From Brachyspira aalborgi (GTDB lineage: Bacteria; Spirochaetota; Brachyspiria; Brachyspirales; Brachyspiraceae): a DNA stretch of 64,000 nt. The position numbers and the translations under genes are program-made. The DNA is taken from contig NZ_SAXU01000001.1 in the NCBI RefSeq assembly GCF_008016455.1, positions 186,001 to 250,000 of the forward strand. The letters run 5' to 3'. Below are positions 17,414-51,388 of the stretch, in pieces (within the stretch, counting starts at the first letter, position 1; every line of letters starts with the position of its first letter). The notes under the pieces are model-generated. The model searched no databases, was not told the DNA's origin, and saw only the letters and a program-made list of their open reading frames with translations.

Positions 17414-17460
17414 ATGTTAACATAATAAATGTTGACATATTTTTTTAAATATTGTATAAT
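17414..17460 (+). promoter_or_regulatory. Promoter of repeat-leader locus 1, with tandem ATGTT(A/G)ACAT
   Basis: Consensus TTGACA (17432-17437), 17-base spacer, TATAAT (17455-17460). The palindrome ATGTTAACAT (17414-17423) is followed 15 bases on by ATGTTGACAT (17429-17438), which covers the -35 box, so a regulator may bind here. Confidence 0.8.
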
Positions 17461-17492
17461 TTATTCATTAAAAATTAAGGTAGGAATTTTAT

Positions 17493-17555
17493 ATGTTTAG
17501 CTCGTCACTACACTACACTACACTACACTACACTACACTACACGCCGTATTATAA
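17493..17555 (+). CDS. Leader ORF of locus 1 (20 codons in present frame)
   Basis: ATG at 17493 with AGGA 7 bases before it and a consensus promoter 33 bases upstream. It reads MFSSS and then enters the CACTA repeat, giving Leu-His-Tyr-Thr-Thr repeats, and stops at TAA 17553-17555 inside the loop of the terminator-like hairpin. The +1 frame past the repeat (from 17542) is open for 39 codons through the hairpin and the RBS to a TGA at 17659-17661 that overlaps the ATG of the membrane-protein gene. Gain of one repeat or loss of two would join them. Confidence 0.75.
   Translation: MFSSSLHYTTLHYTTLHAVL
17506..17543 (+). repeat. Pentanucleotide repeat (CACTA)7.6
   Basis: Seven perfect CACTA units plus CAC. 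All five codons generated (CAC, TAC, ACT, ACA, CTA) are sense codons, so the tract is translatable in every frame on this strand, whereas the opposite strand would meet TAG. Expected to vary by slipped-strand mispairing. Confidence 0.97.
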
Positions 17556-17574
17556 ATTTTTTCGGCGATTTTTT
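17543..17574 (+). terminator. Terminator-like hairpin inside the 5' leader of locus 1
   Basis: CGCCG (17543-17547) pairs with CGGCG (17563-17567), 15-base loop, followed by A and six T. The stem starts on the last base of the repeat. It lies between promoter and gene, so it would act as an attenuator. Confidence 0.7.
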
Positions 17575-17657
17575 CATTGCAAAACTAAAGAATTATTTGA
17601 AACATTTAAACGCTTTCTCTTGCGTCTACAAAAATTAACTTTTAAGGAGATAACTCT

Positions 17658-19670
17658 ATGATATTTAAAAACAAAAAATTATTTCTAAAAATTTATATTC
17701 CGTTTGTGATTATTATTTCTATTGCTCTAATAGTTTTACAAATTCTTGGTTCTAAAAAGAGAATTGGTTATTTAACCGATTTTAATTTGAATATTGAAAG
17801 AACGCTAAAGTTAAATAATTTAGAAAACATTATGACAAATTATATTATAGATGACGAATTGGATGAAGAAGGCATAGAAAATTATATATTAACTAATGAA
17901 AATATAACAAATTATGTTCATCAATTTCGAATAAGATATTATGATAAAATTTTTAGGAATAACGATATTTACGGAGTTTATCCTGATTTATCAAACTTGC
18001 CTGATTATATGGAAAATGCGGAAATGGATGGAAACGGAAGTCCTTACGGAAATTTTATTTCTGACAAAAAAACGATTGAAGAAGAAAAAATTGATAATAT
18101 TAACTATATTTTGAAAATAAAAATAAATATTATTAGATATGTTATATATCTTATTCTAATATTATTAATAATTTACACGAAAATTTATTTTGAAAATATA
18201 AAAATATTTTTTAATGGCATTATTACAGTAATAAAGATAAAATCAAATGTGGATATAAAATTAAATTTAAGTATTATAATGATATTAGGCTATTTATATT
18301 TAATATTGCCTTATATGATTTTTCTTATAACTTGGGTAAAATATTTTATATCTATACCAAGTTTAATTTTAGTTATTATAGCTACCTACTTTACAATTAA
18401 AGATACAAAAAAACACTATAACATATCATATAATTTTAATTTATTTAGTTTGATATTATTATTTATTATTATTACAATATGGGTTATTATATTAGGAGTT
18501 GGCAATATATGTTTGCCAAGCGGAGATACTATTTATGGCAGATATGCTGTTTTTAAAGACTTAATAGAATTTCCTTTTCCAATTATCTATCCTGAAAATG
18601 GATACGGATTTGTATATTATTTCGCTCATTGGATTATTCCAGCGATATTTGGAAAGATATTTAATTATAATGTTGCAAATATTATTCTAATTTTATGGAC
18701 ATCTTTACCATTATTTTTAACTTTGATATTATTGTCAATATATTTAAATAAAATAAAAACCAAACAAATATTTATAATCTTTTTAATATTTATTTTATTT
18801 GTTCCTCCAAGTCTTATTTTTCATAAGGAAGGCAATTTTGGAAAAGGATTATTGACTGTTTTTGCTACGAGTTATATTAATATATTTAATCTTTTCAATC
18901 AAAGCCCAGCTATATATTTAATGTCGGTATTATTTTTACTTCAAAAAAATTCATTTAATTTTGCTTTTTTAGGATTATCCATTATGCTATATTCACCTTA
19001 TGCGACATTAGGAATTATACCTTTTATGATTGCAAAATCTATAATAGAAATAAGCGCAGATAAAAATGAATTAAAAAATATATTTAGCGTTAGCAATATA
19101 TTATCTTCAATATCAATATTTCCAATACTATTATTATATTTTTCATCAACAGCTACTAAATCCGATGGATTAAGATTTGTATTAACGGATTATCCCGTAT
19201 TATATCTAATAGAGCTATTTATGATTAAATTTGGAATTATATTTATTTTATTATTTAAATATAATAAGAAAAATTATTTGTTTTATGTTTCATTATTTAC
19301 TCTTATAGCGGTTTCATTAATACAATATTCGGGCGACCATAATTTCCATAGAACTAATATAACGGCATTATTCTTTTTAAGTATTTTTTTAACGGATTAT
19401 TTTATAAATCATTTTAATGAAAATTCTTTAAGAAAATATTTATTATTAATAATATTTATGATGGGTATATTTAGAGGTTATATTGAACTTGACCAAATAG
19501 ATTTTTATTTAAAACAAATTAAGACATTTGGAAAAGTAAATATGGAAGATATGGCGGTTAATAAAACATTTAATACTAAAAATAATAGTTGGCAGTTGAG
19601 AACAATAACATGTCAAGATATAGACAATTCAATATTTTTTAAATACATAGCAAAGGATAATAAAAAATGA
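17658..19670 (+). CDS. Polytopic membrane protein, possible GT-C-like glycan enzyme
   Basis: 670 residues: one span near residues 9-29, an extracytoplasmic segment to about 155, then roughly a dozen hydrophobic spans. GNICLPSGDTIYGRY and PENGYGFVYYFAHW lie at the start of the second block, similar in placement to the loop motifs of GT-C glycosyltransferases or related polymer-handling proteins, but I do not recognise a defined family. AAGGAG precedes the ATG by 8 bases. Its stop overlaps the ATG of the GT2 gene (ATGA), so the two are coupled. Role in surface glycan synthesis is inferred from the partner. Expression is probably controlled by the repeat leader. Confidence 0.65.
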   Translation: MIFKNKKLFLKIYIPFVIIISIALIVLQILGSKKRIGYLTDFNLNIERTLKLNNLENIMTNYIIDDELDEEGIENYILTNENITNYVHQFRIRYYDKIFRNNDIYGVYPDLSNLPDYMENAEMDGNGSPYGNFISDKKTIEEEKIDNINYILKIKINIIRYVIYLILILLIIYTKIYFENIKIFFNGIITVIKIKSNVDIKLNLSIIMILGYLYLILPYMIFLITWVKYFISIPSLILVIIATYFTIKDTKKHYNISYNFNLFSLILLFIIITIWVIILGVGNICLPSGDTIYGRYAVFKDLIEFPFPIIYPENGYGFVYYFAHWIIPAIFGKIFNYNVANIILILWTSLPLFLTLILLSIYLNKIKTKQIFIIFLIFILFVPPSLIFHKEGNFGKGLLTVFATSYINIFNLFNQSPAIYLMSVLFLLQKNSFNFAFLGLSIMLYSPYATLGIIPFMIAKSIIEISADKNELKNIFSVSNILSSISIFPILLLYFSSTATKSDGLRFVLTDYPVLYLIELFMIKFGIIFILLFKYNKKNYLFYVSLFTLIAVSLIQYSGDHNFHRTNITALFFLSIFLTDYFINHFNENSLRKYLLLIIFMMGIFRGYIELDQIDFYLKQIKTFGKVNMEDMAVNKTFNTKNNSWQLRTITCQDIDNSIFFKYIAKDNKK

Positions 19671-20560
19671 AAATAGCCGCTATTATTCCTTGCTATAATG
19701 AAGAGCTTACAATTAAACAAGTTATTTACGATATTCAAAAATATTGTCCGAAATGCGAAATATATGTTTTCGATAATAACAGTTCCGACAATTCTTACAA
19801 CATTGCAAAAGAAACGGGAGCGATAGTTAAAAAAGTTATGTATCAAGGAAAAGGCGAGGTTGTTAGAAACGCTTTTTCTATAATAGATGCCGATATCTAT
19901 ATATTGATAGACGGAGACGGAGAATGTGACGCTTCGGCTATTCCTTCATTAATCGATTATTTAATAAATGAAGATTTAGATATGATTACGGTAATTCGTA
20001 AAGCTGGCAAATATAGAAGAGGGCATTCATTTGGAAATAAAATGATAACGACTTTTGCCAAAATATTATTCGGTAAAAATTGCAATGATATTTTAAGCGG
20101 ATATAGAATTTTTTCTAAAAAATTCGTAAAAACATTTCCTGCGAATTCGAGAGGCTTTGAAATAGAAACGGAGCTTACAATTTTTGCCTTACAAATGCGT
20201 CTTCCTATAGGCGAGATGGAAGCGGAATATAAAAGTCGCCCTGAAGGTTCTTTTTCTAAACTAAATACTTTCAAAGATGGATTTAGAATATTAGGATTAA
20301 TAATATATTTACTTATGAGCGAAAGACCTTTATTATTTTGGTGGATTATAGCTTTAATATTCGCTTTATTTGGATTATATTTTGGACTTCCTATAGTTAT
20401 TTCATTTTTTGAAACAGGCATAGTTCCCGTAGCGACTTCGGTTTTATCTTCTGGATTTATGCTTTTATCGGGCATATCTATAATTACGGGACTTATTATG
20501 AACGCTATAGGCAGAGTAATAAGCGAGAATAGAAGATTTAAATATAATTCTGTTAAGTGA
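19667..20560 (+). CDS. GT2-family (DPM1/ArnC-like) glycosyltransferase
   Basis: 297 residues. AAIIPCYNEELTIKQVI at the N-terminus, FDNNSSDNS, and the metal-binding DGDGECD at 82-88 define a GT2 (GT-A fold) transferase of the dolichyl/polyprenyl-phosphate sugar type; LSGYRIFSKKFVKTFP and RGFEIETEL are family-typical acceptor-side motifs. Two spans at ~residues 218-285 anchor it in the inner membrane. It likely makes a lipid-linked sugar used by the upstream membrane protein, with which it shares an ATGA overlap. Confidence 0.9.
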   Translation: MKIAAIIPCYNEELTIKQVIYDIQKYCPKCEIYVFDNNSSDNSYNIAKETGAIVKKVMYQGKGEVVRNAFSIIDADIYILIDGDGECDASAIPSLIDYLINEDLDMITVIRKAGKYRRGHSFGNKMITTFAKILFGKNCNDILSGYRIFSKKFVKTFPANSRGFEIETELTIFALQMRLPIGEMEAEYKSRPEGSFSKLNTFKDGFRILGLIIYLLMSERPLLFWWIIALIFALFGLYFGLPIVISFFETGIVPVATSVLSSGFMLLSGISIITGLIMNAIGRVISENRRFKYNSVK

Positions 20561-20600
20561 ATAATGAATAAAGAAATACATTATAATTAAAATTTTAATG

Positions 20601-21491
20601 TTAAAGTTTTTTTATTTCGTCTATTGTTAAGCCTGTGATTTCGCTTATAAGGTTAATGTCCAGGTTTTTAGTTTTCATTGATTTTGCCATTGAAATTTGT
20701 TCTGCAATTCTACCTTCTTTAAGTCCTTCAAGTTTTCCTTCGTCAAAACCGTCTTCTCTTTCTCTTCTTAACATCATTTTTTGCCCAACTAAAAACGCTT
20801 CTCTAGCCGCATACGCTCGCATCATTTTATCGTCAGAAGTAAATTTTCTGTATTCTTCAATAACTTTACTCATAATTTGGTTTTCCTCCTTTAATTCTTC
20901 TTCGATTAATTCTAAATTATCGCTTGTAAAAAATTTCATCCAACTTAATAATCTGTTTTTCTTTAATTCCTCTTTAGTTGAATTTTTAATTATCTCAATA
21001 AATCTTTTTACTTCTAAAATATGAATTTGAATTAAGTCTAAACTTATATTTAAATCTTTTGTATCAATCAATTTAAAGCATCTGTGAGCTTTTCCTTTAT
21101 CTCCAAATTTTAAATTAAAATCAAGTAAATTAATGCTAATAATTTTTTGAACATTGCTATAATTTTCTCCTTCCTTAACTTCATTGACAACATTTTTTGA
21201 AATATAATAAAAAATTCTTTTTAGAAAATCCATATTTCCGCATAATTGAAATTCTATAATCACAGTTTCATTATTTTTTGTCTTCGCCTTAATATCAATT
21301 ATCGACTCTTTAAGTTCAATATTTTCTGACAAATTGAATGGGTCGATTATTTCTAAATCTTTAACTTCCTCAAAATTGAATTCTCTTAAAGTGGAATTTA
21401 CTAAATCGGTTAATAAGTCTTCGTTTCCATTTTTGCCGAGTAAATATCGTGCAAATAAGTCGCTTAATTTGTATACTTCTTCATGTTTCAT
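20601..21491 (-). CDS. Rpn-family PD-(D/E)XK nuclease (transposase-like)
   Basis: 296 residues. The N-terminal half has the Rpn/PDDEXK_2 pattern: DLFARYLLGKNGNEDLLTDLVNSTL, then ELKESIIDIKAKTKNNETVIIEFQ, which supplies the D-x(n)-E-x-Q catalytic core. The C-terminal part (EGKLEGLKEGRIAEQISMAKSMK) is the usual helical tail. These proteins are recombination-promoting nucleases widespread and multicopy in Brachyspira-like genomes. No inverted repeats flank it. A consensus promoter puts the transcript start at the ATG, so the mRNA appears leaderless. Confidence 0.88.
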   Translation of the reverse strand: MKHEEVYKLSDLFARYLLGKNGNEDLLTDLVNSTLREFNFEEVKDLEIIDPFNLSENIELKESIIDIKAKTKNNETVIIEFQLCGNMDFLKRIFYYISKNVVNEVKEGENYSNVQKIISINLLDFNLKFGDKGKAHRCFKLIDTKDLNISLDLIQIHILEVKRFIEIIKNSTKEELKKNRLLSWMKFFTSDNLELIEEELKEENQIMSKVIEEYRKFTSDDKMMRAYAAREAFLVGQKMMLRREREDGFDEGKLEGLKEGRIAEQISMAKSMKTKNLDINLISEITGLTIDEIKKL

Positions 21492-21525
21492 AATTATATT
21501 ATAACAGAATATTTTTATTTGTCAA
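21492..21525 (-). promoter_or_regulatory. Promoter of the Rpn gene, leaderless start
   Basis: Minus strand: TTGACA (21525-21520), 16-base spacer, TATAAT (21503-21498), then six bases to the ATG at 21491. The start codon falls at the expected +1. Confidence 0.7.
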
Positions 21526-21822
21526 AGTTATTTTAATAATTAAAGGAATACAAACAAGCTACTCTGCCTTTATTTATACAAATATTGGAAATATAAAAAA
21601 TATTTTAGATTATAAATCTAAAATAGTTTATAAAATAGTATTGAGGGTATTTATTTAGCTATATTAATTAAGATAAATAAAAAATAATGTTTAATTAAAA
21701 CATAAGATTTAAATATATAAATTAATTAATCCTATTTATAAAATATAACAATTTAAAAAATATTTTTGACAATTCCCAATTATTCCTATATAATATACAA
21801 ACTTAAAATTATAGGTTTTTAT
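21526..21822. other. AT-rich intergenic region with an 11-bp inverted repeat
   Basis: No gene seen. A perfect inverted repeat TATTTTAGATT-ATA-AATCTAAAATA (21601-21625, arms of 11) stands in the middle; it is not followed by a T-run, so it is not a standard terminator and could be an operator or an mRNA structure. The thioesterase promoter fills the right end. Confidence 0.5.
21766..21794 (+). promoter_or_regulatory. Promoter of the thioesterase/rpiB operon
   Basis: TTGACA (21766-21771), 17-base spacer, TATAAT (21789-21794). This also shows that an in-frame TTG at 21766 is not the start of the gene. Confidence 0.85.
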
Positions 21823-22530
21823 ATGTATGAAATGAAAACGATTATTGGAACGAGTCAAATTGACAAAGACGGACTTTTAAAAACTTCGTCAATATTCGAT
21901 ATTATGCAGGATTGTTCTTTTTTTCAATTAGAAAGCGAAAATGAACTTACAAATTATTTTAATGAAAATAATATTAGTATGTTTCTTATTTCAAGACAAG
22001 TCGATATTTATAAACTACCAAAATATAGCGAAAAAATTATAACGAGGACTTATGTTTACGAATGCAACGAGGTTTACGGATACAGAAATACGGTTATATA
22101 CGATGAAAATAATATTGAGCTTGTCGTTTGTTATGCGATTGGCGGATTTGTAGATTTGACTAATTCAAATTTAGTTAGAATTCCAAAGTCAATTATTGAC
22201 GGAGTGAAATTCGATAAAAAAATTGAAATGAATTATTTGCCGAGAAAAATAAAATTCGACAATAAAAATTTAAAAGAGATTGACAGATTTAAAGTAAAAA
22301 AATATTTTATAGACGATAATAATCATGTAAATAACGCGAGATATATTGATATGGTTATCGATTATGTTGAAGATTATTATAAAAGAATAAGAATAGAATA
22401 TAGAGTTCCTGCAAAGTTGGGAGATACGATTATAGTTAATAAAGAAATTATTGAAGATAAAATTATAATTAAACTTTGCTCAGAAAATAATACAACTTAT
22501 GCAATAGTAGAATTTTCTTATAATTTATAA
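21823..22530 (+). CDS. Acyl-ACP thioesterase
   Basis: 235 residues forming two hotdog-fold halves. The N-terminal MYEMKTIIGTSQIDKDG and the C-terminal DDNNHVNNARYIDM (Asn-x-His-x-Asn-Asn motif) are typical of bacterial acyl-acyl carrier protein thioesterases, which release fatty acids from ACP in the cytoplasm. The in-frame extension upstream to 21766 is rejected because it lies in the promoter. rpiB follows 12 bases after the stop, so they are co-transcribed. Confidence 0.9.
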   Translation: MYEMKTIIGTSQIDKDGLLKTSSIFDIMQDCSFFQLESENELTNYFNENNISMFLISRQVDIYKLPKYSEKIITRTYVYECNEVYGYRNTVIYDENNIELVVCYAIGGFVDLTNSNLVRIPKSIIDGVKFDKKIEMNYLPRKIKFDNKNLKEIDRFKVKKYFIDDNNHVNNARYIDMVIDYVEDYYKRIRIEYRVPAKLGDTIIVNKEIIEDKIIIKLCSENNTTYAIVEFSYNL

Positions 22531-22542
22531 AAAGGAGAGAGA

Positions 22543-22992
22543 ATGAAAATAGCGATAGCGTCCGACCATACTGGAGTGGAGTTGAAATCCGAAATAATAA
22601 AATACTTAAAAGAATTAGGGCATGAAGTTTCCGATTTTGGAACGAATAGCGCCGAGAGTATAGATTATCCTATTTACGGAAAAAAAGTCGCCGAAGAGAT
22701 TTCTAAAGGAAATTATGACGGAGGAGTTTTAATTTGCGGAACGGGAATAGGAATTTCGCTTGCTGCAAATAAAGTTAAAGGAATAAGAGCGGCGGTTTGT
22801 TCAGAGCCTTATTCTGCAAAACTATCGAAACAGCATAATAATTCAAATATTATAGCTTTCGGAGCGAGAGTAGTCGGAGTAGATTTGGCAAAAATGATAG
22901 TTAAAGAATGGATTGAGGCAAAATTTGAAGGCGGACGACATTTAAAAAGAGTGGAATTGATAAGCAAAATTGAAAACGGAGAAGAAATTTAA
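22543..22992 (+). CDS. rpiB: Ribose-5-phosphate isomerase B
   Basis: 149 residues of the RpiB/LacAB family, interconverting ribose 5-phosphate and ribulose 5-phosphate. IASDHTGVELK with the catalytic-side Asp/His, GVLICGTGIGISLAANK with the active Cys at about residue 67, and KQHNNSNIIAFGARVVG are all present. AAGGAGAG ribosome-binding site. It is second in the operon with the thioesterase and convergent with the dsbD-like gene 3 bases away. Confidence 0.97.
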   Translation: MKIAIASDHTGVELKSEIIKYLKELGHEVSDFGTNSAESIDYPIYGKKVAEEISKGNYDGGVLICGTGIGISLAANKVKGIRAAVCSEPYSAKLSKQHNNSNIIAFGARVVGVDLAKMIVKEWIEAKFEGGRHLKRVELISKIENGEEI

Positions 22993-22994
22993 AA

Positions 22995-24701: not shown

Positions 24702-24772
24702 AATATTTTTAATTCCTTTTTTACTTTATATAGGCAATTTTTTAGTAAAAATCAATCAATTAAATTAAGCTT

Positions 24773-25327: not shown

Positions 25328-25393
25328 ATAAACCTCCAAAATAATAATAAAATAATTTTTTTTAATTGTATTATTTATTGATAATATTTCAAG

Positions 25394-26269: not shown

Positions 26270-26398
26270 TATAAAACCTCTCTTTTTAATTGTTTTAATA
26301 TTCTAACAAATTATAACTTAAATGCGGAATTTAGTCAAATTTATAAAATCATTAAATATAATTAATTTAAAATAATTTAAATTTTATCAAATTTAAAC

Positions 26399-26433
26399 TT
26401 GACATAAATTTTAAGATATTGTAAAATATTTAT
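26399..26433 (+). promoter_or_regulatory. Promoter of repeat-leader locus 2
   Basis: TTGACA (26399-26404), 17-base spacer, TAAAAT (26422-26427). The ATG of the leader ORF at 26434 is 7 bases after the -10 box, at the expected transcription start. Confidence 0.8.
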
Positions 26434-26508
26434 ATGCTTGATTTTGTAATGAATAAAATAAATTTGCGCTCTTGCAATTCAATTCAATTCAATTCAATTC
26501 AAGCATAA
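26434..26508 (+). CDS. Leader ORF of locus 2 (24 codons in present frame)
   Basis: Reads MLDFVMNKINLRSC, then the AATTC repeat (Asn-Ser-Ile-Gln-Phe), then Ala and TAA at 26506-26508, 14 bases before the hairpin. No Shine-Dalgarno is present; the position at +1 suggests a leaderless mRNA (an in-frame ATG at 26449 is the alternative). Past the repeat the +1 frame (from 26501) is open for 29 codons through the hairpin to TGA at 26588-26590, overlapping the FkbM gene's ATG. Gain of one unit or loss of two would connect them. Confidence 0.6.
   Translation: MLDFVMNKINLRSCNSIQFNSIQA
26476..26502 (+). repeat. Pentanucleotide repeat (AATTC)5.4
   Basis: Five perfect AATTC units plus AA, the shortest of the four tracts. 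All codons produced (AAT, TCA, ATT, CAA, TTC) are sense; the complementary strand would meet TGA. Confidence 0.95.
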
Positions 26509-26520
26509 TTTTTGCATAAT

Positions 26521-26546
26521 TCCTATTTTCTTTAATAGGGCTTTTT
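26521..26546 (+). terminator. Terminator-like hairpin inside the 5' leader of locus 2
   Basis: CCTATT (26522-26527) pairs with AATAGG (26534-26539), extended by a T-G pair, with a 6-base loop, then GC and five T. It lies 40 bases upstream of the FkbM gene, so it would attenuate that gene. Confidence 0.65.
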
Positions 26547-26586
26547 CTATTGCATTTTTTAATATTTTACATTTTAGGAGAATTCT

Positions 26587-27630
26587 ATGACTTCAAAAAC
26601 TATTGATAATATCGTTTGGTTTATTCCATCTAGAAAATTAAGAGATAATATCAGAGATTATATGAATTTTATATATAATAAAATTAATGAAATAAACAAA
26701 CCAATTCGAGCTTGGGATAGGTATCTTTTTATTCTTTTTAGAGAAGATATAAAAAATGACGCTAATTTTTATCAAAAATATTTGAATTTAATTAAAAATT
26801 TAGATAAAGAAAGCGTAGAAATTGTTATTGGAATATTATCCAAAATTACAAATTATAATAATATTGAAGACGATATTTATTTTTCGCGTAAAGAATCGAA
26901 AAGATTAAACGATTTATACGAAGAATTTAATAACAAAATAATAAAAATAAATGAAGAATTATTTATATACGATAAATATATTTTACCAAAAAACCAATTT
27001 GAGATTGAAGCTTTTTACGGAAAATACGGAATGGATTATGTAAAAAATTTAAATCAAGTTAAAAATAAAAATATAATTGATGCGGGAGCTTATATCGGAG
27101 ATTCTGCAATATTATTTTCCGATTATACAGATAAAAATGTTTACAGTTTTGAACCGTTTTTGCATCACTATAATATGATGTTGAAAACTATAGAATTAAA
27201 TAAAAAGAATAATATTATTCCCGTGAATATGGCTTTAGGCGATAGCAATAAAGAATTATCTCTATATTCAAACGGAGATTTAAATATGGGACTTTCAATA
27301 GAGAGAAATTCTGAACAATCCGATATTAATTGCATTGAGAATAAAGTAAAAATGGTAACTCTCGATAGTTATGTGAAAGAAAATAATATTGAAGTCGGAT
27401 TAATAAAAACGGATTTGGAAGGTTTTGAACAGCCGTTTTTGAAAGGAGCGATTGAGACTATAAAAGAACAAAAGCCCGTTTTAATAATAAGCATATATCA
27501 TAATTATAGCGACTTTTTTGAAATAAAACCAATGATAGAGAATTTAAATTTAGGTTATAAGTTTAAGATAATAGAACCTAAAGCACCAGAGAGTGCTATA
27601 GTTTCTACGCTTTTACTTGCAGAAGTATAA
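26587..27630 (+). CDS. FkbM-family SAM-dependent methyltransferase
   Basis: 347 residues. The C-terminal ~200 hold the FkbM Rossmann domain: IIDAGAYIGDSAILFSDY (SAM-binding), VYSFEPFLHHYNMMLKTI, NMALGD, MVTLDSY, LIKTDLEGFEQPFLKGA and PVLIISIYHN. The N-terminal ~130 residues are charged and helical. FkbM enzymes O-methylate sugars, and in surface-glycan settings methylate capping residues; the acceptor is unknown here. AGGAG precedes the ATG by 6 bases. The repeat leader upstream probably makes its expression variable. A short gap follows before an unrelated promoter-less small gene. Confidence 0.9.
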   Translation: MTSKTIDNIVWFIPSRKLRDNIRDYMNFIYNKINEINKPIRAWDRYLFILFREDIKNDANFYQKYLNLIKNLDKESVEIVIGILSKITNYNNIEDDIYFSRKESKRLNDLYEEFNNKIIKINEELFIYDKYILPKNQFEIEAFYGKYGMDYVKNLNQVKNKNIIDAGAYIGDSAILFSDYTDKNVYSFEPFLHHYNMMLKTIELNKKNNIIPVNMALGDSNKELSLYSNGDLNMGLSIERNSEQSDINCIENKVKMVTLDSYVKENNIEVGLIKTDLEGFEQPFLKGAIETIKEQKPVLIISIYHNYSDFFEIKPMIENLNLGYKFKIIEPKAPESAIVSTLLLAEV

Positions 27631-40207: not shown

Positions 40208-41212
40208 TTAAATTCCTGTGTAAATATCTCTAAACTTATCGAGCCATTTTTGACGATTCGATTCTACAAAATCTGGGTCGTCTTTTATTGAATAAATTTC
40301 AGTCATAGGTATTACGACTTCAGAGGAAGAAGCGTCCTTCCTTATAGCTCTTCTATTAACTTTATTAATAAGAATATTTTGAGCGTCTAAACTAACGCAA
40401 TAATCTATAAACTTTTTAGCGTTTTCTAAATTTTTAGCGCCTTTAATAATATAAACGCCTTCGGGTTTTGATATTACGCCCTCTTTCATATATATAACTT
40501 TTACGGGCGAACCTGAAACGACATAATTTATTCCGCCTTCTTCATAAGTTAAACCGACTGCATATTCTCCGTCCGCAACTCCTTTATAAACGGCAGAAGA
40601 ACCGCTTAATAATTTGCCGTCTAAATTCGCGCATAATTTTTTAACATAATCCCAACCTTTTTCAGGATTTCCATTTCCCATAGCGTAAAGCATATTAACC
40701 AAATGCTCGAAAGCGGAAGAGGAAGCCGCAGGGTCAGCCGCCGCTATTTTTCCTTTTAATGCTGGATTTAATAAATCCGCGTAGCCTTCAATTTTTATAT
40801 TTTTTGTTAAATTTGTATTAATCATAATAACGCTTGGAATAAGCGAAAATCTTGTAAAATTTCCCTCTTCGTTTTGAAATTCTTCAAATATATTAATTTC
40901 ATTTGTAGAAATATAACTTTCAAACAATTCGCCTTTTGATTTGACGCTGTTTAAAGTTCCGCCCCAAAGAATATCGCCTAAAGGATTGGTTTTTTCTGCC
41001 TCTATTCTTTTAAGCAATTCTCCCGTTCCTGCAGTTACAACTTCAACGCTTATTTTAGGATTTTTTAATTTGAAATCGTCTAAAATAGTATTCATTAAAT
41101 CTAACGGATGCGAACAGTATATTATTAACTCTTCTTTATCCGAACTTTTGCTTTGCGAACATGATAATATAAATATCGCAATAAATAAAATAATTAAATT
41201 AAGTTTTCTCAT
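40208..41212 (-). CDS. bitA: Iron-binding lipoprotein, first gene of the bit operon
   Basis: 334 residues with lipobox Cys18 (FILSCSQSKSS) and the same binding-protein fold as the next two genes (ELIIYCSHPLDLMNTILDDFKLKNPKI; SGSSAVYKGVADGEYAVGLTYEEGG). AAGGAG lies 6 bases before the ATG, and the ATG overlaps a TGA (ATGA) that ends the +1 frame of the upstream repeat leader. As the first gene of an apparently five-gene unit, its leader would affect the whole importer. Confidence 0.9.
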   Translation of the reverse strand: MRKLNLIILFIAIFILSCSQSKSSDKEELIIYCSHPLDLMNTILDDFKLKNPKISVEVVTAGTGELLKRIEAEKTNPLGDILWGGTLNSVKSKGELFESYISTNEINIFEEFQNEEGNFTRFSLIPSVIMINTNLTKNIKIEGYADLLNPALKGKIAAADPAASSSAFEHLVNMLYAMGNGNPEKGWDYVKKLCANLDGKLLSGSSAVYKGVADGEYAVGLTYEEGGINYVVSGSPVKVIYMKEGVISKPEGVYIIKGAKNLENAKKFIDYCVSLDAQNILINKVNRRAIRKDASSSEVVIPMTEIYSIKDDPDFVESNRQKWLDKFRDIYTGI

Positions 41213-41241
41213 AACTTAACTCCTTGAAAATATTTTTTTAT

Positions 41242-41270
41242 AAAAAGCGTTTTTTTAAGGAATAAACGCC
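41242..41270 (-). terminator. Terminator-like hairpin inside the 5' leader of locus 3
   Basis: Minus strand GCGTTT (41269-41264) pairs with AAACGC (41252-41247), with an additional outer G-T pair, 11-base loop, then five T. It is 30 bases from the bitA start and would work as an attenuator. Confidence 0.7.
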
Positions 41271-41341
41271 AATTATCATTGGAATAGATATTATATAGAA
41301 ATAGATTAATCGATAAATATAATAAAACTTTAAAAATGAAT

Positions 41342-41443
41342 TTATAGGATAGGATAGGATAGGATAGGATAGGATAGGATAGGATAGGATAGGATAGGAT
41401 AGGATAGGATAGGATACCTACCGCATAAGTTTATTAAAGTCAT
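41342..41443 (-). CDS. Leader ORF of locus 3 (33 codons in present frame)
   Basis: ATG at 41443 with AAAGGAA 8-9 bases before it. It reads MTLINLCGRYP and then Ile-Leu-Ser-Tyr-Pro repeats from (ATCCT)14, and stops at TAA 41344-41342 directly after the repeat. The +1 frame beyond (AAA from 41343) is open for 44 codons through the hairpin and RBS, ending in a TGA (41211-41209) that overlaps bitA's ATG. Gain of one unit or loss of two would place the leader in that frame. Confidence 0.78.
   Translation of the reverse strand: MTLINLCGRYPILSYPILSYPILSYPILSYPIL
41346..41415 (-). repeat. Pentanucleotide repeat (ATCCT)14
   Basis: Fourteen perfect copies, 70 bases (AGGAT on the + strand), the longest tract in the window. 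The codons ATC, CTA, TCC, TAT and CCT are all sense; the opposite strand would meet TAG. Confidence 0.98.
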
Positions 41444-41474: not shown

Positions 41475-41503
41475 AGTATAGTATATAATAAATGATTTGT
41501 CAA
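41475..41503 (-). promoter_or_regulatory. Promoter of repeat-leader locus 3
   Basis: Minus strand: TTGACA (41503-41498), 17-base spacer, TATACT (41480-41475). Transcription should begin near 41468, 25 bases before the leader ATG. Confidence 0.85.
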
Positions 41504-44356: not shown

Positions 44357-44529
44357 ATATTGTAAATGTAATAAAAATTTTATTAAAATGATAAATCTTA
44401 ATAAATATTTTTTCAAGTATTTATATAAAAATATATAAATAATTTCTATATAAAGTATTGCTATTTTATTATTTTTTATGTATTATTTTAGGCAATATTT
44501 AAATTTTTAATTAAATTAAGGAGTAAAAA

Positions 44530-46017: not shown

Positions 46018-46041
46018 AAAGATTAAATAAAGGAGAAAATT

Positions 46042-46137
46042 ATGGGAATAGATTCGGCTATATTTATGGGACTTAGTCTACTTGCAGTTTGGGGAGGATT
46101 TGTTTTCTTTCTCGCCATAGCTTTAAGAAAAATATAA
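46042..46137 (+). CDS. Small subunit of NSS transporter (MetS-like), 31 aa
   Basis: Reads MGIDSAIFMGLSLLAVWGGF then VFFLAIALRKI: a single hydrophobic span with a short basic end, the hallmark of the methionine/alanine importer small-subunit family that accompanies MetP-type NSS transporters. AAGGAG lies 6 bases before the ATG, and the gene is directly downstream of the transporter gene and before their shared terminator. Below usual gene-length cutoffs, so easily missed. Confidence 0.82.
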   Translation: MGIDSAIFMGLSLLAVWGGFVFFLAIALRKI

Positions 46138-46160
46138 AAAATTAAGTTTTATAATTAAAT

Positions 46161-46200
46161 AAAGAGGTTTAATCAATTTAGATTATTCCTCTTTTTTTAT
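46161..46200 (+). terminator. Terminator of the NSS transporter operon
   Basis: AAAGAGG-TTTAATC and GATTATT-CCTCTTT pair to form a long stem, followed by TTTTTTATTTA. The same sequence read on the minus strand (AAAGAGGAATAATC...) could also end rex transcription. Confidence 0.85.
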
Positions 46201-46851
46201 TTATTGTTTTTTTATTCTGCCTCTTTGAATTGTGGTATTTTCAATATCGTTTATAAAATAAAATAATGATTCAATTTCATCTACTATATTTACATCGTTT
46301 ATAATACAATTTGGTTTATCTAATAATTTTATAGGAGCGAAATTAAGAACGCCTTTAATTCCCGCATTGCATATAACATCAAACATTCTTTGAGCTTCCA
46401 AATCTGGAACTGTCAATATTGCAACTTCTATTTTATTATTTATTATATAATCTTTTAATTCTTCAATCGGAAGTATCGGAGTTTTTGCCTCTCTATCGAT
46501 TTTTTCGGGATTATGGTCGAAAGCCGCCACTATTTTCATAGATTCATTTTCAAAACCTCTATAATTTACTAAAGCCTTTCCAATTTTTCCATATCCGATT
46601 AATATAATACTATGCGAAACTTTTTTTCCGAGTATATCGTCTATTCTATCAAGCAAATCGTCAATAATATATCCGCCTTTCTTATTGCCCGATATGCTAA
46701 ATAATGAAAAATCTTTTCTAACTTGAACGGCGCTTATGCCAATCGCATCTCCCAAATTATTTGAATAAGCCTTTATGAAACCAAAACTTTTCATACGCTT
46801 TAAGGCGTTTTTATATTTCAATAAACGCATAATTTGTGTTCTGCTAATCAT
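46201..46851 (-). CDS. rex: Redox-sensing transcriptional repressor Rex
   Basis: 216 residues. N-terminal winged helix (MISRTQIMRLLKYKNALKRMKSFGFIKAYSNNLGDAIGISAVQVRKDFSLFS) and NAD-binding Rossmann domain with GYGKIGKALVNY (~residue 104) and FDHNPEKI. Rex represses fermentation and respiration genes when NAD+/NADH is high and is released by NADH. GGAG precedes the ATG. A TGTTAT-N6-ATAACA palindrome 93 bases upstream could be an autoregulatory site. Confidence 0.95.
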   Translation of the reverse strand: MISRTQIMRLLKYKNALKRMKSFGFIKAYSNNLGDAIGISAVQVRKDFSLFSISGNKKGGYIIDDLLDRIDDILGKKVSHSIILIGYGKIGKALVNYRGFENESMKIVAAFDHNPEKIDREAKTPILPIEELKDYIINNKIEVAILTVPDLEAQRMFDVICNAGIKGVLNFAPIKLLDKPNCIINDVNIVDEIESLFYFINDIENTTIQRGRIKKQ

Positions 46852-46943
46852 ATTTACTCCGATATTATTATTTATTTTAATATCATTATATCATAATAAA
46901 GTTATATGTCAATAAAATATTTCTAAAATAAAATTGTTTATAA

Positions 46944-46961
46944 TGTTATTTTTTGATAACA
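46944..46961. promoter_or_regulatory. Rex-like palindrome upstream of rex
   Basis: TGTTAT (46944-46949), TTTTTG, ATAACA (46956-46961). Rex operators are typically TTGT(T/G)AA-like half-sites with a 4-6 base gap; this matches the pattern but not the exact consensus. It lies between rex and folD. Confidence 0.5.
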
Positions 46962-47098
46962 AAATAAGCAGAAATTCTATATTATTTTTTATCTCGCCAA
47001 AAATAACATATAATTTTAAATATATTAAATAAAATAAACAACTTGTATTTTATAATATTAATTATAAAATATTTTAATAATTTTTCGGAGTTTTATAA

Positions 47099-47932
47099 AT
47101 GATACTTGATGGAAGAGAATTATCAAAAGAAATAAAAGAAAATATAAAATCTAAAGTCGCTTTGCTCGATAAAAAACCAAGAATAGATTTTATATATTTT
47201 GAAAATGATAAATCTACTGAAATATATTTTAATAGAGCTAAAAAATCCGCAGAAAGCGCGGGAATGATTGGCGCGCTTCATAATCTTAACTCAAACACAA
47301 GCGAAAAAGATTTTTTAACTTTAATAGAATATCTAAACGAAGAAAAAGAAACCAACGGAATAATGATTCAAGCGCCTTTGCCTAAACATATAGATAAAAA
47401 GAAAGTTTACGAAACAATCTCGCCAGATAAAGATGTCGATGCAATATCAAATATAAGTTTAGGAAGAATATTTTTGGGAGAAAGCAAACTTATTCCATGC
47501 ACGGTTAAAAGCGTAATGGCTTTACTTAAAAAAACTAAAATAAAAATTGAAGGAGCTAACGCCGTAGTCGTTGGAAGAAGCGATATAGTTGGAAAACCTT
47601 TAGCTCATTTGCTTCTTCAAGAATCGGCAACGGTTACAATAACTCATTCAAAAACAAAAAATTTAAAAGAGATTTGCAAGAAAGCCGATATATTATGCGT
47701 GTCTATCGGAAAATCGGAGTATATAACCGAAGAATATATTAAAGAAGGAGCGATTGTTATAGATATTGGAATAAATGTTTTAGAGGACGGTTCTATAAAA
47801 GGCGATGTTAAATTTGACGAGGCTTCAAAATTAGCTTCTTTTATAACTCCAACTCCAAACGGTGTGGGAAGCGTTACGGTTGCAATGCTTTTAGATAATT
47901 TGCTTTATCTTTATAGTCTTCAAAATCAATAA
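47099..47932 (+). CDS. folD: Bifunctional methylenetetrahydrofolate dehydrogenase/cyclohydrolase
   Basis: 277 residues. GRELSKEIKENI at the N-terminus, GIMIQAPLPKHID, DVDAISNISLGRIFLGE, PCTVKSVMALLKK, VVGRSDIVGKPLAHLLLQESATVTITHS and TPNGVGSVTVAMLLDN cover the folate-binding and NADP-binding motifs. It interconverts methylene-, methenyl- and formyl-tetrahydrofolate. The RBS CGGAG lies 9 bases before the ATG. Monocistronic. Confidence 0.97.
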   Translation: MILDGRELSKEIKENIKSKVALLDKKPRIDFIYFENDKSTEIYFNRAKKSAESAGMIGALHNLNSNTSEKDFLTLIEYLNEEKETNGIMIQAPLPKHIDKKKVYETISPDKDVDAISNISLGRIFLGESKLIPCTVKSVMALLKKTKIKIEGANAVVVGRSDIVGKPLAHLLLQESATVTITHSKTKNLKEICKKADILCVSIGKSEYITEEYIKEGAIVIDIGINVLEDGSIKGDVKFDEASKLASFITPTPNGVGSVTVAMLLDNLLYLYSLQNQ

Positions 47933-48021
47933 TTTTATAATAAATAATTTTACATTTTATATATTAACATTGTTATAAATTAATGCTATAATGCATAAAT
48001 TAAAAATTAGGAGATTTAAAA

Positions 48022-48732
48022 ATGATTGGAGGATATTTAGAATATTATTTCGGTTATATATGGATTTTAATACCTGGATTAATACTCGGATTTTGGGCGC
48101 AAGCTAAAGTTAAAGGAACTTACTCAAAATATAGCAAAGTTCAAAATAGAAGAGGAATAACGGGAGAGCAAACTGCAAAACATATATTAAACGCTTACGG
48201 TATAGATATTCCTGTTGAAAGAATAAATGGAAGTTTAACCGACCATTATGACCCAAGGGCAAAAGTATTGCGTCTATCTTCGGGAGTTTATAGCGGAACG
48301 GATGTGGCGGCTTTAGGAATAGCGGCTCATGAAGTTGGACATGCAATACAGCATGACAGAGGATATACGCCTTTAACTTTAAGAAACGGTTTTTATCCTT
48401 TATGCGCGATAGGAGACCAATTTGGACCTTTCTTAGTTTTAGCGGGAATATTAATCGGAGGAGCGGGCAGTTTTTCTCAAACGATTATGTTGATTGGAAT
48501 AATATTATTCGCTTTTGCGGTTTTCTTTTCGCTTATAACTTTACCCGTTGAATTTGACGCTTCAAACAGAGCTATAAAAATTTTAGATAAAGGCGGATTT
48601 TTAGATTCTGAAGAACTTGACGGAGCGAAAAAAGTATTGAAAGCCGCAGCTTTAACTTATGTAGCCGCCGCCGTTACTTCGGTTTTATCTCTTATAAGGC
48701 TTATATTAATTGCAAATAGAAGAAGAGATTAA
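48022..48732 (+). CDS. YugP-type membrane zinc metallopeptidase
   Basis: 236 residues. N-terminal span (YIWILIPGLILGFWAQAKV), then GITGEQTAKHILNAYGI, VLRLSSGVYSGTDVAALGIAAHEVGHAIQH with His103-Glu104-x2-His107, then two more spans and a terminal FDASNRAIKIL. This is the Zn_peptidase_2/YugP family, probably a membrane peptidase with unknown substrate. AGGAG 8 bases before the ATG. The length and motifs are family-typical. Confidence 0.92.
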   Translation: MIGGYLEYYFGYIWILIPGLILGFWAQAKVKGTYSKYSKVQNRRGITGEQTAKHILNAYGIDIPVERINGSLTDHYDPRAKVLRLSSGVYSGTDVAALGIAAHEVGHAIQHDRGYTPLTLRNGFYPLCAIGDQFGPFLVLAGILIGGAGSFSQTIMLIGIILFAFAVFFSLITLPVEFDASNRAIKILDKGGFLDSEELDGAKKVLKAAALTYVAAAVTSVLSLIRLILIANRRRD

Positions 48733-48760
48733 AAAGATTAAATATTTAAAATCAAAAAAT

Positions 48761-48797
48761 AAAGAGGTTAATTTTTTTAATTATCCTCTTTTTTTAT
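48761..48797 (+). terminator. Rho-independent terminator after the YugP-like gene
   Basis: AAAGAGG-TTAAT and ATTAT-CCTCTTT arms with T-rich loop and then TTTTTTATTTTT. Strand-symmetric enough to also end the convergent Maf gene. Confidence 0.85.
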
Positions 48798-48799
48798 TT

Positions 48800-50452
48800 T
48801 TAAAATTTATTTAAAATTATTTTTATTTCGTTATGCCATTTATTTATATATTCTTTAAATTCTCGTTTTGAAATTTTATTTTCTTTTAATTCTGAAAAAT
48901 GATAAGGCGAAATCATATTAGCAAAATTTTCGTCAATTTCATTGTATATATTTTTAATAAAATATTCTAATTTGTTTATAAATTCTTTTTCGTTTATATT
49001 CTCTTCAATATAATCTTTTATATTTATATTTTTTTCATTTGTATTATTTAAATTTATATTATTAAATATTTTAACATTTTTTATTTTTGCAGATTCTTTT
49101 GTTAAATTAAAAATTTCAATTTCTTTTATAATTTCATTTGCCAAAGTTTCAAAATGCATTTTATAACTAATAAGCGAAGAAGAAGATTTTCTTAAAATAT
49201 TATCGTAGCATTCTATATTTTGATTATCGTTTAATCTTTTATATTTCAAATTTTCAAAAGTTTTTAATTTGTAAGAACTTAAAAAATCTAAAGCTATTGC
49301 ATTTGAATATTTTGAATGGCTTTTATTACTTAAATGACAAAAATCGCAACCTGCAAATAAAATATATTTTGGATTAAGAAAATTAGCAATTCTCAAAGCG
49401 GGCATTATAACGCTTCCTTCCATAGGAAAATAAATATTATTATCGCTATTTTTATTAGAATAAATAATTTTTTCAAAACTTTCATTATGCGAAAAATAAA
49501 ATATTCTTTTTTTATTAATATTTGTAAGCGGGAAAGAATAAGCGCTATGAGTTGTAAATATTGGAATATTTTCTTTTATAGCGTCTATTATATAAATGCA
49601 AGAATAAAATCCGCCGTCAGTCGAAACTATTGCATCAGGTTTTATATTATTTTTTATTAAAGTATTGAATGCATGTGATAAAACTAAAATAAAATGAGTT
49701 TTTGAGAGTTTTTTTATTTTTTCAATATAATTGTCTATCGAAGCGCCCGCGGATATTAAAAGCAAAGGAGTTTTTTTATTTAAAATATTTTTATAAGTTT
49801 TTATAGAATAGCCTTTATTGAAAGCCAAATTATAAATTATATTTCTTGCCCAAATCGGAGCGAAATAATAATTTGAAGTTAGAGACATTAATTTTTCTTT
49901 AATTTTATTCATTAAAAGAAAATTAACATTGTCGTAATAATTTTTATTTTCAGCGTTTATATTCGAGGCTCTTATATGCATTATACAAATTATTTTTTTA
50001 ATATCTTCTTCGGCTATATAAAAATCGAAAAAAGAAATTATATCTTCAATTTTTTCTTTTAATAATATAATCACTCTTTTTAAGTTTTCAGATTTTATAT
50101 TTTCAAAAATTAATTTCGCTACTTCAATATCTTTTTCTATTATTATCGCTTTGCTATTTTCGTTTAGAGATAAAAAATAATCTATATGATAAAACGAAGA
50201 TATAGACAAAAAAATTCCAATACGACTCGAATTATCTTTTATATTTTGATTTATTAATTTTTTAGCTTCTTCAATCGGAGCGTAAATTGAAGTTAAAGGT
50301 TTATTATTATATAAAACGGTTATAAGATTTTCTTTATTTAATTTTATAGAATATACAGAATTTTTTATTTTATATATATTTAATTTTTCAATCGCTCTTA
50401 AATTATATTTATTATTTTTAAGCTCTTCAATATTATTAATATAATTATTCAT
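48800..50452 (-). CDS. Maf/DUF115 family protein (6-hydroxymethylpterin PPK-like fold)
   Basis: 550 residues. The central domain has KTPLLLISAGASIDNYIEKI, THFILVLSHAFNTLIKNNIKPDAIVSTDGGF, IFTTHSAYSFPL and PMEGSVIMPALRIANFLNPKYILFAGCDFCH, the DUF115/Maf_flag10 pattern of motility-associated flagellin sugar transferases. In spirochaetes such proteins modify flagellin with nonulosonic acids, which is inferred here; no flagellin or sugar-synthesis gene is nearby. The N-terminus is highly charged. Transcribed away from the small-lipoprotein locus. Confidence 0.85.
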   Translation of the reverse strand: MNNYINNIEELKNNKYNLRAIEKLNIYKIKNSVYSIKLNKENLITVLYNNKPLTSIYAPIEEAKKLINQNIKDNSSRIGIFLSISSFYHIDYFLSLNENSKAIIIEKDIEVAKLIFENIKSENLKRVIILLKEKIEDIISFFDFYIAEEDIKKIICIMHIRASNINAENKNYYDNVNFLLMNKIKEKLMSLTSNYYFAPIWARNIIYNLAFNKGYSIKTYKNILNKKTPLLLISAGASIDNYIEKIKKLSKTHFILVLSHAFNTLIKNNIKPDAIVSTDGGFYSCIYIIDAIKENIPIFTTHSAYSFPLTNINKKRIFYFSHNESFEKIIYSNKNSDNNIYFPMEGSVIMPALRIANFLNPKYILFAGCDFCHLSNKSHSKYSNAIALDFLSSYKLKTFENLKYKRLNDNQNIECYDNILRKSSSSLISYKMHFETLANEIIKEIEIFNLTKESAKIKNVKIFNNINLNNTNEKNINIKDYIEENINEKEFINKLEYFIKNIYNEIDENFANMISPYHFSELKENKISKREFKEYINKWHNEIKIILNKF

Positions 50453-50559
50453 TTTAATTTTCTCTTTTGTAATTGTTTTATGATATATAAAAACGAATAA
50501 AAATACAATTAATTATTTTAGTAAAAGAGAATAAAAAAACAATCATTTAATTTATAAAT

Positions 50560-50593
50560 AAAAAAAGACACCGTAATAAATACGATGCCTTTT
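50560..50593 (-). terminator. Terminator of the small lipoprotein gene
   Basis: Minus strand: GGCATCGTA-TTTA-TTACGGTGTC with G-T pairs, then TTTTTTTATTT. It follows the lipoprotein stop codon by ~28 bases. Confidence 0.85.
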
Positions 50594-50620
50594 AATTATT
50601 TTATCTATTATTAATTTCAA

Positions 50621-51016
50621 TTATTTTTTAGTAATATCTAAAGTTAATGGACTTTCTCCTTCTTGTCCCATTATTAAATTTCCTTGAGTATCGCTAATAA
50701 AAACAAGAGTAAATTTTCCACTACTGCTACTGTCACTATACGAAGCGGTATAAGTCGTGTCGCTAACTCTTGTTACAGAAGACGAAGGAATTGTAGTATC
50801 GCCACTCTCTCCTTTTATAGTAAAAGAACCGTCAGTATTTATTGTAAGTAAATGCATTTCAGTTTGCACTAGTTTTCCATACCAATTACCAGCATAATAA
50901 GATAATGTTCTTCCTTCTGTTCCTGTTTTATTCTTATTATCGCAACTTATTGAAAATAGAGCGATTAAAGATAAGATAATTAATAATAGATAAAAATTTT
51001 TTCTTTGTTCTTTCAT
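50621..51016 (-). CDS. Small lipoprotein, repeat-leader locus 4
   Basis: 131 residues from ATG 51016 (AGGAG 9 bases before it). A hydrophobic signal ending in lipobox FSISC (Cys25) is followed by a charged linker (DNKNKTGTEG) and a beta-rich domain (AGNWYGKLVQTEMHLLTINTDGSFTIKGES; SGKFTLVFISDTQGNLIMGQEG) like small lipocalin/META-type lipoproteins. Its reading frame is also open upstream for 70 codons through the hairpin to the repeat, so a start further up would be possible in frame but without a usual RBS. Variable expression through the leader is inferred. Confidence 0.75.
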   Translation of the reverse strand: MKEQRKNFYLLLIILSLIALFSISCDNKNKTGTEGRTLSYYAGNWYGKLVQTEMHLLTINTDGSFTIKGESGDTTIPSSSVTRVSDTTYTASYSDSSSSGKFTLVFISDTQGNLIMGQEGESPLTLDITKK

Positions 51017-51147
51017 TATAGAACTCTCCTTTTGATATTTATTAAAAACATTTAAATAAATGTTTCTCGCGAAATTAAAATTTTGATTGAATTGAAATAA
51101 TCCAAATATTAGTTGTTTATTTGAGAAAAATTTTTGCAATAAAATTG

Positions 51148-51171
51148 AAGCGCTTAAAAATTTAAACGCTT
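51148..51171 (-). terminator. Terminator-like hairpin inside the 5' leader of locus 4
   Basis: Minus strand: a 10-bp stem (AAGCGTTTAA with TTAAGCGCTT, one G-T pair) closed by a 4-base loop, followed by CAATTTTATTG. The T-run is weak (four T), so termination may be partial. It lies ~130 bases from the lipoprotein ATG. Confidence 0.6.
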
Positions 51172-51200
51172 TTGAAATTTGTAATATATAGAAATTTAAA

Positions 51201-51305
51201 TTATTGTTTAGAAGATAATAATAGCGTTCTGTTCTGTTCTGTTCTGTTCTGTTCTGTTCTGTTCTGTTCTGTTCTGTTCTGTTCTAGATTATTCAAGTTA
51301 AACAT
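51201..51305 (-). CDS. Leader ORF of locus 4 (34 codons in present frame)
   Basis: ATG at 51305, or TTG at 51296 in the same frame with AAGG 9 bases before it. It reads MFNLNNLEQN and then Arg-Thr-Glu-Gln-Asn repeats, and stops at TAA 51203-51201, before the hairpin. The +1 frame (from 51226) is open for 70 codons through the hairpin and straight into the lipoprotein in its own frame, unlike the ATGA overlap of the other three loci. Gain of one repeat or loss of two would join them. A 7-bp hairpin (AACCGAA/TTCGGTT, 51333-51311) precedes the start. Confidence 0.65.
   Translation of the reverse strand: MFNLNNLEQNRTEQNRTEQNRTEQNRTLLLSSKQ
51226..51285 (-). repeat. Pentanucleotide repeat (AGAAC)12
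   Basis: Twelve perfect AGAAC units, 60 bases (GTTCT on the + strand). Codons AGA, ACA, GAA, CAG, AAC are all sense. Here the complementary strand is also free of stops. Confidence 0.97.
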
Positions 51306-51360
51306 CCTTAAACCGAAATTCTTTCCTTCGGTTATTTATTTATTTATTAATTGTATGCAA

Positions 51361-51388
51361 ATTATAACATTTTAAAAAAATTTGTCAA
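51361..51388 (-). promoter_or_regulatory. Promoter of repeat-leader locus 4
   Basis: Minus strand: TTGACA (51388-51383), 16-base spacer, TATAAT (51366-51361). Transcription should begin near 51354. Confidence 0.85.

Follow-up and report, generated by a model that had tools for sequence, protein, structure and literature searches.

The stretch of DNA analysed here (the window) comprises 64,000 nucleotides (nt) of Brachyspira aalborgi contig NZ_SAXU01000001.1 (assembly GCF_008016455.1, positions 186,001 to 250,000) and contains four loci in which a gene is preceded by a leader carrying a pentanucleotide repeat. The layout described by an earlier reading of the letters alone (the sequence-only reading) was found again at all four: a TTGACA promoter, a leader ATG, a perfect pentamer tract, a hairpin with a T-rich tail, a Shine-Dalgarno (SD) sequence and the gene. 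With a probability of roughly three in four, these loci are examples of phase-variable translational gates that occur across the genome, i.e. a leader-open reading frame (ORF) type of phase variation.

Two of the loci lie on the forward strand. Locus 1 has an exact promoter match, TTGACA-N17-TATAAT (17432..17460), and a leader ORF (17493..17543) starting at ATG 17493 behind an SD-like GGTAGG. Its CACTA tract (17506-17543, 38 nt) is followed by a hairpin, CGCCG/CGGCG then ATTTTTT (17543..17567, -7.3 kcal/mol), and by a second inverted repeat (17610-17625). The post-tract open frame of 39 codons (17542..17661) ends in a TGA that overlaps the ATG of the gene (17658..19670), which encodes a 670-aa protein without Pfam match that has paralogues behind other leaders. 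No relatives of this protein were found in a scan of genome contigs, and a phage origin of the locus was rejected, as there was no match in a phage collection. At locus 2 the promoter is TTGACA-N17-TAAAAT (26399..26427), and the leader ORF (26434..26502) begins at ATG 26434, 6 nt past the -10 box, an arrangement of the leaderless type. A CAATT tract (26475-26502, 28 nt) and a hairpin, CCTATT/AATAGG then GCTTTTTCT (26522..26539, -5.9 kcal/mol), precede an FkbM-domain methyltransferase gene (PF05050; 26587..27630), and the open frame of 29 codons (26501..26590) again ends in an ATGA overlap.

The other two loci are on the reverse strand. Locus 3 has the promoter TTGACA-N17-TATACT (41475..41503), a leader ORF (41344..41443) with ATG 41443 and SD AAAGGA, and an ATCCT tract (41344-41416, 73 nt). 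The open frame of 44 codons (41209..41343) crosses a hairpin, GGCGTTT/AAACGCT then TTTTTATA (41246..41270, -5.8 kcal/mol), and ends in an ATGA overlap with the gene for an extracellular solute-binding protein (PF13416; 40208..41212), whose N-terminus looks lipoprotein-like by eye. At locus 4, the promoter TTGACA-N16-TATAAT (51361..51388) is followed by a leader ORF (51226..51305) starting at ATG 51305, an AGAAC tract (51226-51285, 60 nt) and a hairpin, AAGCG/CGCTT then CAATTTTATTG (51148..51171, -10.1 kcal/mol). The gene (50621..51016) encodes 131 aa from ATG 51016 with SD AAAAGGAG; read from an upstream TTG it would encode 172 aa, a form without Pfam match. Here the open frame of 70 codons (51017..51226) enters the gene in frame, which leaves this locus ambiguous between a leader and an in-gene repeat. 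TTGACA thus stands at a spacer of 16-17 nt from the -10 box (TATAAT, TAAAAT, TATACT and TATAAT at loci 1-4) in every case.

Re-measurement of the stop-free stretches gave the figures of the sequence-only reading, and its further statements that ATGA lies over the gene start at three loci and that the repeat codons are all sense on the leader strand also held. Since the open frame differs from the gene frame at these three loci, their repeats were not found to lie in frame inside the gene. The window hairpins are moderate (8, 0, 11 and 0 of 200 shuffles folded as well at loci 1-4), and the per-locus chance of an open frame, which was computed for 62 leaders of this genome, was 0.21, 0.42, 0.05 and 0.01 here, respectively; at these values single window loci are weak evidence, and it is the genome-wide set that carries weight. 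The frames other than the open one stop ahead of the hairpin by more than 12 nt in both cases at locus 4, in one at locus 3 and in none at loci 1 and 2. With the repeat numbers of the assembly, none of the four leaders is in the open frame. A scan of the window with Rfam gave only a tRNA above threshold, and no known riboswitch or leader RNA.

The window is part of a 2.49-Mb contig, all along which matches to the periodic pattern are spread. Tracts were taken from the window and from 68 stretches fetched around pattern matches; 12 control stretches contained no pentamer tract. The search requires a C or G in the unit and a length of at least about 31 nt, and covers mainly this contig. It showed that the pattern, which had been described for four loci, reaches far beyond them in this genome and is also seen in congeners. 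At least 74 distinct pentamer tracts of at least 25 nt were detected, 67 of which are oriented as leaders, in 17 unit classes, and 7 lie inside longer ORFs. Among the 67, three tracts (L032, L037 and L057) apparently come after the ATG of the gene itself, and two (L051 and L052) are duplicates at a run of N; at the latter, tract and leader are doubled around the run, probably an assembly gap caused by the repeat. On the leader strand, none of the 67 oriented tracts has a stop codon in its repeat, and 31 of the 67 units have a stop on the opposite strand; orientation was done by hand with the stop content of the units in view, so this count is partly circular and serves as supporting evidence only.

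The test that bears most directly on the proposed gates asked how often a frame is open, defined as free of stops from the tract to within 4 nt of the gene, and counted only frames other than that of the gene. It used 59 of the 67 leaders, those dropped having no gene of at least 80 aa, an N after the tract or a gene more than 330 nt away. A non-gene frame was open in 34 of the 59. The upstream regions of 102 genes of this genome that lack a tract would give 2.5, and dinucleotide shuffles 5.0. In 200,000 draws simulated under the first of these nulls, the count never exceeded 11. In the congeners, the same was true of 15 of 27 loci versus 3.6 in shuffles. The congener set comprised at least 46 tracts of at least 30 nt; ten inside genes were unused, and 36 were oriented, 33 of them with a gene and 27 in the open-frame test. 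Openness in any frame was rejected as the main statistic because tract-less genes reach 36%. The ATGA overlap alone is weak evidence, as ATGA begins 61% of the SD-supported genes in this genome.

The excess of open frames is not accounted for by homologous modules. Clustering at an E-value of 1e-3 chained 52 of the 59 modules into one, and a stricter threshold was therefore used, which gave 25 clusters including 19 singletons; among the singletons a non-gene frame was open in 11 of 19, versus 1.9 in shuffles. The pentamer is not fixed among related modules: one cluster has AAAGC, ACAGT, AACGC and AACAG, another ACACT, ACTCC and AGGAT. Similar modules precede unrelated genes, as in locus L043 and window locus 4 (90% over 191 nt). 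Substitutions in the open frame were counted in 33 nearest-neighbour pairs from nine hand-chosen clusters and fell on codon positions 1, 2 and 3 in 135, 147 and 126 cases; a further 167 lay where the two modules differed in register. Of 44 gaps, 21 had a length divisible by three. A conserved leader peptide was rejected, as there is no codon-position bias. Openness of the frame is thus maintained although the peptide changes, a pattern that points to the movement of ribosomes in cis.

A TTGACA/TATAAT promoter with at most one mismatch was found at 60 of 65 leaders of this genome (1.2 in shuffles) and at 22 of 32 in congeners (0.5 in shuffles). All 66 leaders examined in this genome have an ATG frame that leads into the tract (32.8 expected), as do 33 of 34 in congeners (15.6 expected). 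In this genome, the distance from the -10 box to the first such ATG is 6-9 nt at 19 loci and 23 nt or more at the others; the shorter distance, as at window position 26434, suggests that these 19 leaders are leaderless transcripts.

Pentamer tracts are present in at least 8 of 12 congeners. Among other Spirochaetota, CACTA tracts were found in 0 of 8 genomes, and one further genome (G017) had no tract among the matches listed. No tetramer tracts containing C or G were found, the tetramer pattern matching just five non-repetitive places. About 12 heptanucleotide tracts occur in this genome (L132-L143; e.g. GTCAACC, CTGGCGA and AGGCTCA); several share the layout of promoter, ATG and open frame, and 5 of 11 analysed were open to the gene in a non-gene frame (0.5 expected from shuffles).

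Hairpins are also stronger than in shuffles. The best hairpin with a T-tract had a mean of -4.9 kcal/mol in this genome versus -2.8 in shuffles (65 loci), and of -6.2 versus -2.4 kcal/mol in congeners (35 loci), with very strong examples of -17.3, -18, -20.3 and -27 kcal/mol in the latter. When a strong hairpin was defined as -5.0 kcal/mol or lower with at most 2 of 20 shuffles as good, the longest frame crossed it in 43 of 43 loci (21.7 expected from shuffles). Of 36 loci that could be followed past the strong hairpin, 28 kept the frame free of stops up to the gene (9.2 expected); for non-gene frames the count was 21 of 26 (7.3 expected). Openness was also seen where the strong hairpin is missing, since 15 of 33 such loci in this genome had an open non-gene frame (2.3 expected). 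Openness on both counts favours, for this genome, a gate that would deliver ribosomes to the gene, and favours the view that attenuators are a frequent but not universal part of it. In the logic proposed by the sequence-only reading, repeat number sets the frame and the open frame crosses the attenuator; this part fits the tests, while the hairpin is evidently not the whole story.

The mechanism envisaged is the following. A strong promoter would give a transcript beginning with a short leader ORF that holds a perfect tandem repeat, whose unit, of 5 or occasionally 7 nt, is not divisible by three and reads without stops in every frame. Slippage would alter the repeat number, and with it the frame in which ribosomes exit the tract. 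For two residue classes, ribosomes would meet a stop ahead of the gene, in most cases shortly past the tract, leaving the remainder of the leader untranslated (the OFF state); where a terminator hairpin is present, transcription would end there. The third class would carry ribosomes through any hairpin and, in this genome, to the start codon of the gene (the ON state), so that the terminator would be blocked, the RNA covered and terminating ribosomes brought onto the gene's own SD and ATG. The leader peptide itself would be irrelevant. In this scheme, we infer the start of transcription, translation of the leader, termination in the OFF state and coupling in the ON state, as well as slippage at the four tracts of the window.

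Change in repeat number between strains, which the sequence-only reading proposed to look for, was observed at five pentamer tracts of a B. hyodysenteriae plasmid (L120, NZ_CP016085.2: 8942-8991, 16748-16802, 18042-18081, 27627-27673 and 29911-29970), each compared in 6 to 9 strains. All three residues modulo three occur among the strains at four of the tracts, and two at the first. Each tract occupies the 3' portion of a gene that has another gene behind it; the genes with tracts encode fucosyltransferase, ATP-grasp, methyltransferase and acetyltransferase proteins. Behind two of the tracts, a terminator (-18 and -27 kcal/mol) precedes the following gene, and a third tract is followed by nearly the sequence found behind the first of these two, so a full gene may act as a leader for the next. 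The acetyltransferase unit is missing in three of nine strains, and in the other six its AACAG repeat measures 60, 55, 45, 35, 35 and 65 nt. Its ORF ends about 9 nt inside the -27 kcal/mol terminator in the two strains with 60 and 45 nt; in the other four it stops 38-43 nt short of the terminator.

At the repeat numbers of the assemblies, the open frame is used at 11 loci of this genome and a closed one at 43, the congener figures being 9 and 10; a simpler choice of the leader ATG gives 14 open, 47 not and 1 unknown for this genome. A 470-aa MBOAT gene that is 84-89% identical in three species is gated in all of them, with CAATA as the unit here and ACCGC in two congeners. One stretch of B. 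hyodysenteriae (L083:2501-6315) holds a four-gene array, each gene behind a CAAGC gate with a hairpin of -12 to -13 kcal/mol; two of the genes are homologous to the FkbM gene of locus 2, and three gates are in the longest frame and one is not.

Several observations weigh against the four loci being part of such a set of gates. The excess in any frame is smaller than that in non-gene frames, 47 of 59 versus 21.4 (36%) in tract-less genes, a control that is inflated by in-frame upstream extension and ambiguous gene starts. At twelve of the 59 loci, every frame stops more than 4 nt short of the gene, at distances of 5 to 183 nt (within 40 nt at 9 loci), and another 13 are open solely in the gene's own frame and could therefore be ordinary N-terminal extensions. 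A strong hairpin is present in just 43 of 100 loci and absent from 57, and in just 20 of the 43 do the two shorter frames end more than 12 nt ahead of it (one does so in 9, neither in 14). In congeners, the frame stays open past the hairpin to the gene in just 4 of 11 loci, three of these in one array. Tract variation was seen solely in the 3' parts of plasmid genes and not at window loci, and two of the five plasmid tracts, both in ATP-grasp genes, have near-identical flanks, so that their lengths may be cross-mapped. Finally, two Brachyspira orthologues of the locus 3 gene have neither tract nor leader; a scan of genome contigs gave three relatives of the locus 3 protein, none with a tract, two of which are Brachyspira metagenome-assembled genomes, and the switch is thus not conserved at locus 3.

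Two alternatives change the role of the leader rather than deny it, and both are regarded as unlikely, to a similar degree, though they survive better than the others. The first is pure transcription attenuation as in Streptococcus gallolyticus, for which covering the hairpin would suffice and the leader need not reach the gene. The hairpins, which are stronger than in shuffles here and in congeners and very strong at some congener loci, speak for it, as does the frame that stops between hairpin and gene at 7 of 11 congener loci (L081, L082, L083:6247, L093:4774, L095, L101 and L114); congener loci with strong hairpins also fit plain attenuation. In the B. aalborgi genome, however, the frame is open past the hairpin to the gene in 24 of 25 loci, and among the loci lacking a strong hairpin 15 of 33 are open as well (2.3 expected).

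The second holds that Rho protection or translational coupling acts alone, i.e. that the OFF state would expose the RNA to Rho or leave the gene start unopened, with hairpins being secondary. This genome encodes Rho, so Rho-dependent termination in OFF is possible; moreover, openness reaches the gene start, often with ATGA, and occurs without a hairpin. Hairpin enrichment and the strong terminators of the B. hyodysenteriae units speak against this view, and the high background of ATGA makes the overlap a weak argument for it.

Ordinary in-gene phase variation, in which the real gene would start at the leader ATG and the repeat would lie in the N-terminal coding region, is improbable. It would account for the 13 loci open in the gene's frame alone and for L032, L037 and L057, where the tract follows the apparent ATG of the gene, but not for the 34 of 59 loci open in a non-gene frame. 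The related modules L047 and L053 meet their gene in different frames, and at locus 3 the lipoprotein-like N-terminus is at the downstream ATG. It is highly unlikely that repeat length instead tunes an RNA structure or a small RNA (sRNA) target, as it reportedly does for RepG and tlpB of Helicobacter pylori; the repeat does lie within a presumably transcribed leader, but units differ between homologous modules and frame openness is selected. The least probable explanation is chance, i.e. AT-rich microsatellites with accidentally open frames: the genome is AT-rich and every single locus is weak, but the null draws fell far short of the observed count, promoters and leader ATGs are in excess, and the pattern is repeated in congeners.

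A wider version of the phase-variable gate, to which we give even odds, is that one general-purpose, unit-independent gate constitutes a main phase-variation system of Brachyspira. It would control about 70 genes in one genome, with hairpins as an optional add-on, modules copied before unrelated genes, and an operon variant in which the repeat-bearing 3' end of one gene serves as the leader of the next.

In classic contingency loci, repeats lie inside the coding region, and slippage of non-triplet units switches the frame of genes with surface-related functions. The loci described here differ in that the repeat is in a separate leader ORF before the SD and ATG of the gene, mostly in another frame (34 of 59). 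Tracts of the classic type also occur in this genome, with the units GCAGA, AAGAG and ACGAG inside long ORFs (L001, L004, L005, L006, L007, L016 and L036), the longest measuring 261 nt (L004:2275-2535). In attenuation of the trp type, translation of a leader decides whether a terminator forms, and ATGA stop-start overlaps give translational coupling. Unlike trp-type leaders, the present ones show no apparent amino-acid signal, their peptides not being conserved; what the switch would respond to is a chance change in the number of repeats.

The sequence-only reading had called the system undescribed. This is not so, since Danne et al. (2014; PMC3894217) demonstrated the mechanism experimentally for pil1 of S. 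gallolyticus: a pentanucleotide (GCAGA) repeat lies in a leader-peptide ORF before a premature terminator, and out-of-frame repeat numbers lengthen translation into the hairpin. For pil3, the study reports a like arrangement with high-expressing out-of-frame variants (PMC3894217). A promoter and an ATG leader ORF with a pentanucleotide repeat within it are common to pil1, pil3 and the loci studied here; the terminator hairpin before the gene has counterparts at the four window loci and, in strong form, at 43 of 100 loci, where a repeat number of the right residue class would likewise carry translation to or through it. At the acetyltransferase unit of B. hyodysenteriae, stops are placed as in the S. 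gallolyticus switch, and their placement varies among natural strains. The mechanism is most likely as earlier inferred and not new in kind; what appears to be new is its scale, the diversity of units and the coupling to the gene start in this genome. S. gallolyticus has two such loci, and one genome of a different phylum has 67 oriented pentamer leaders in 17 unit classes. Unlike in pil1 and pil3, the open frame in this genome usually passes the hairpin to the gene start, and 57 of 100 loci lack a strong hairpin; pil1 and pil3 have a leader SD and ATG, whereas 19 leaders here look leaderless.

In the searched literature, which largely excludes subscription journals, no paper combined Brachyspira with pentanucleotide, and no comparable Brachyspira system was found among the matches listed, judged by title and start of abstract. 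On the same basis, only the S. gallolyticus work and a review on that species, among the matches listed, concern leader-ORF repeat switching.

Fifty of 64 downstream proteins were scanned against Pfam; two of the 50 (L009 and L035) came from the wrong strand and were not counted as targets, and 17 of the 50 had no match. The transferases among the targets, with glycosyl-, fucosyl- and acyltransferases among them, comprise FkbM and other methyltransferases, glycosyltransferase families 10, 11 and 61, PMT_2, MBOAT and a pyruvyl transferase. Other targets are solute-binding proteins, outer-membrane barrels and an LPP20 lipoprotein, and further targets include a phosphotransferase system (PTS) transporter, an ATP-binding cassette (ABC) ATPase, a GTPase and a dehydrogenase. 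Many gated genes probably serve the cell surface.

If the gates operate as proposed, a spirochaete genus would use for dozens of genes a type of phase variation previously known from two pilus operons of one Streptococcus, and assemblies of human intestinal and swine-dysentery spirochaetes could reveal which genes are ON or OFF. Repeat surveys limited to genes or promoters could miss switches of the leader type. Loci with and without a hairpin offer a natural test of attenuation versus coupling.

The window also contains a repetitive coding region of another kind. A 470-aa ORF at 62016-63428 on the reverse strand carries tandem repeats of 69, 138 and 276 nt, which by eye are of the leucine-rich type.

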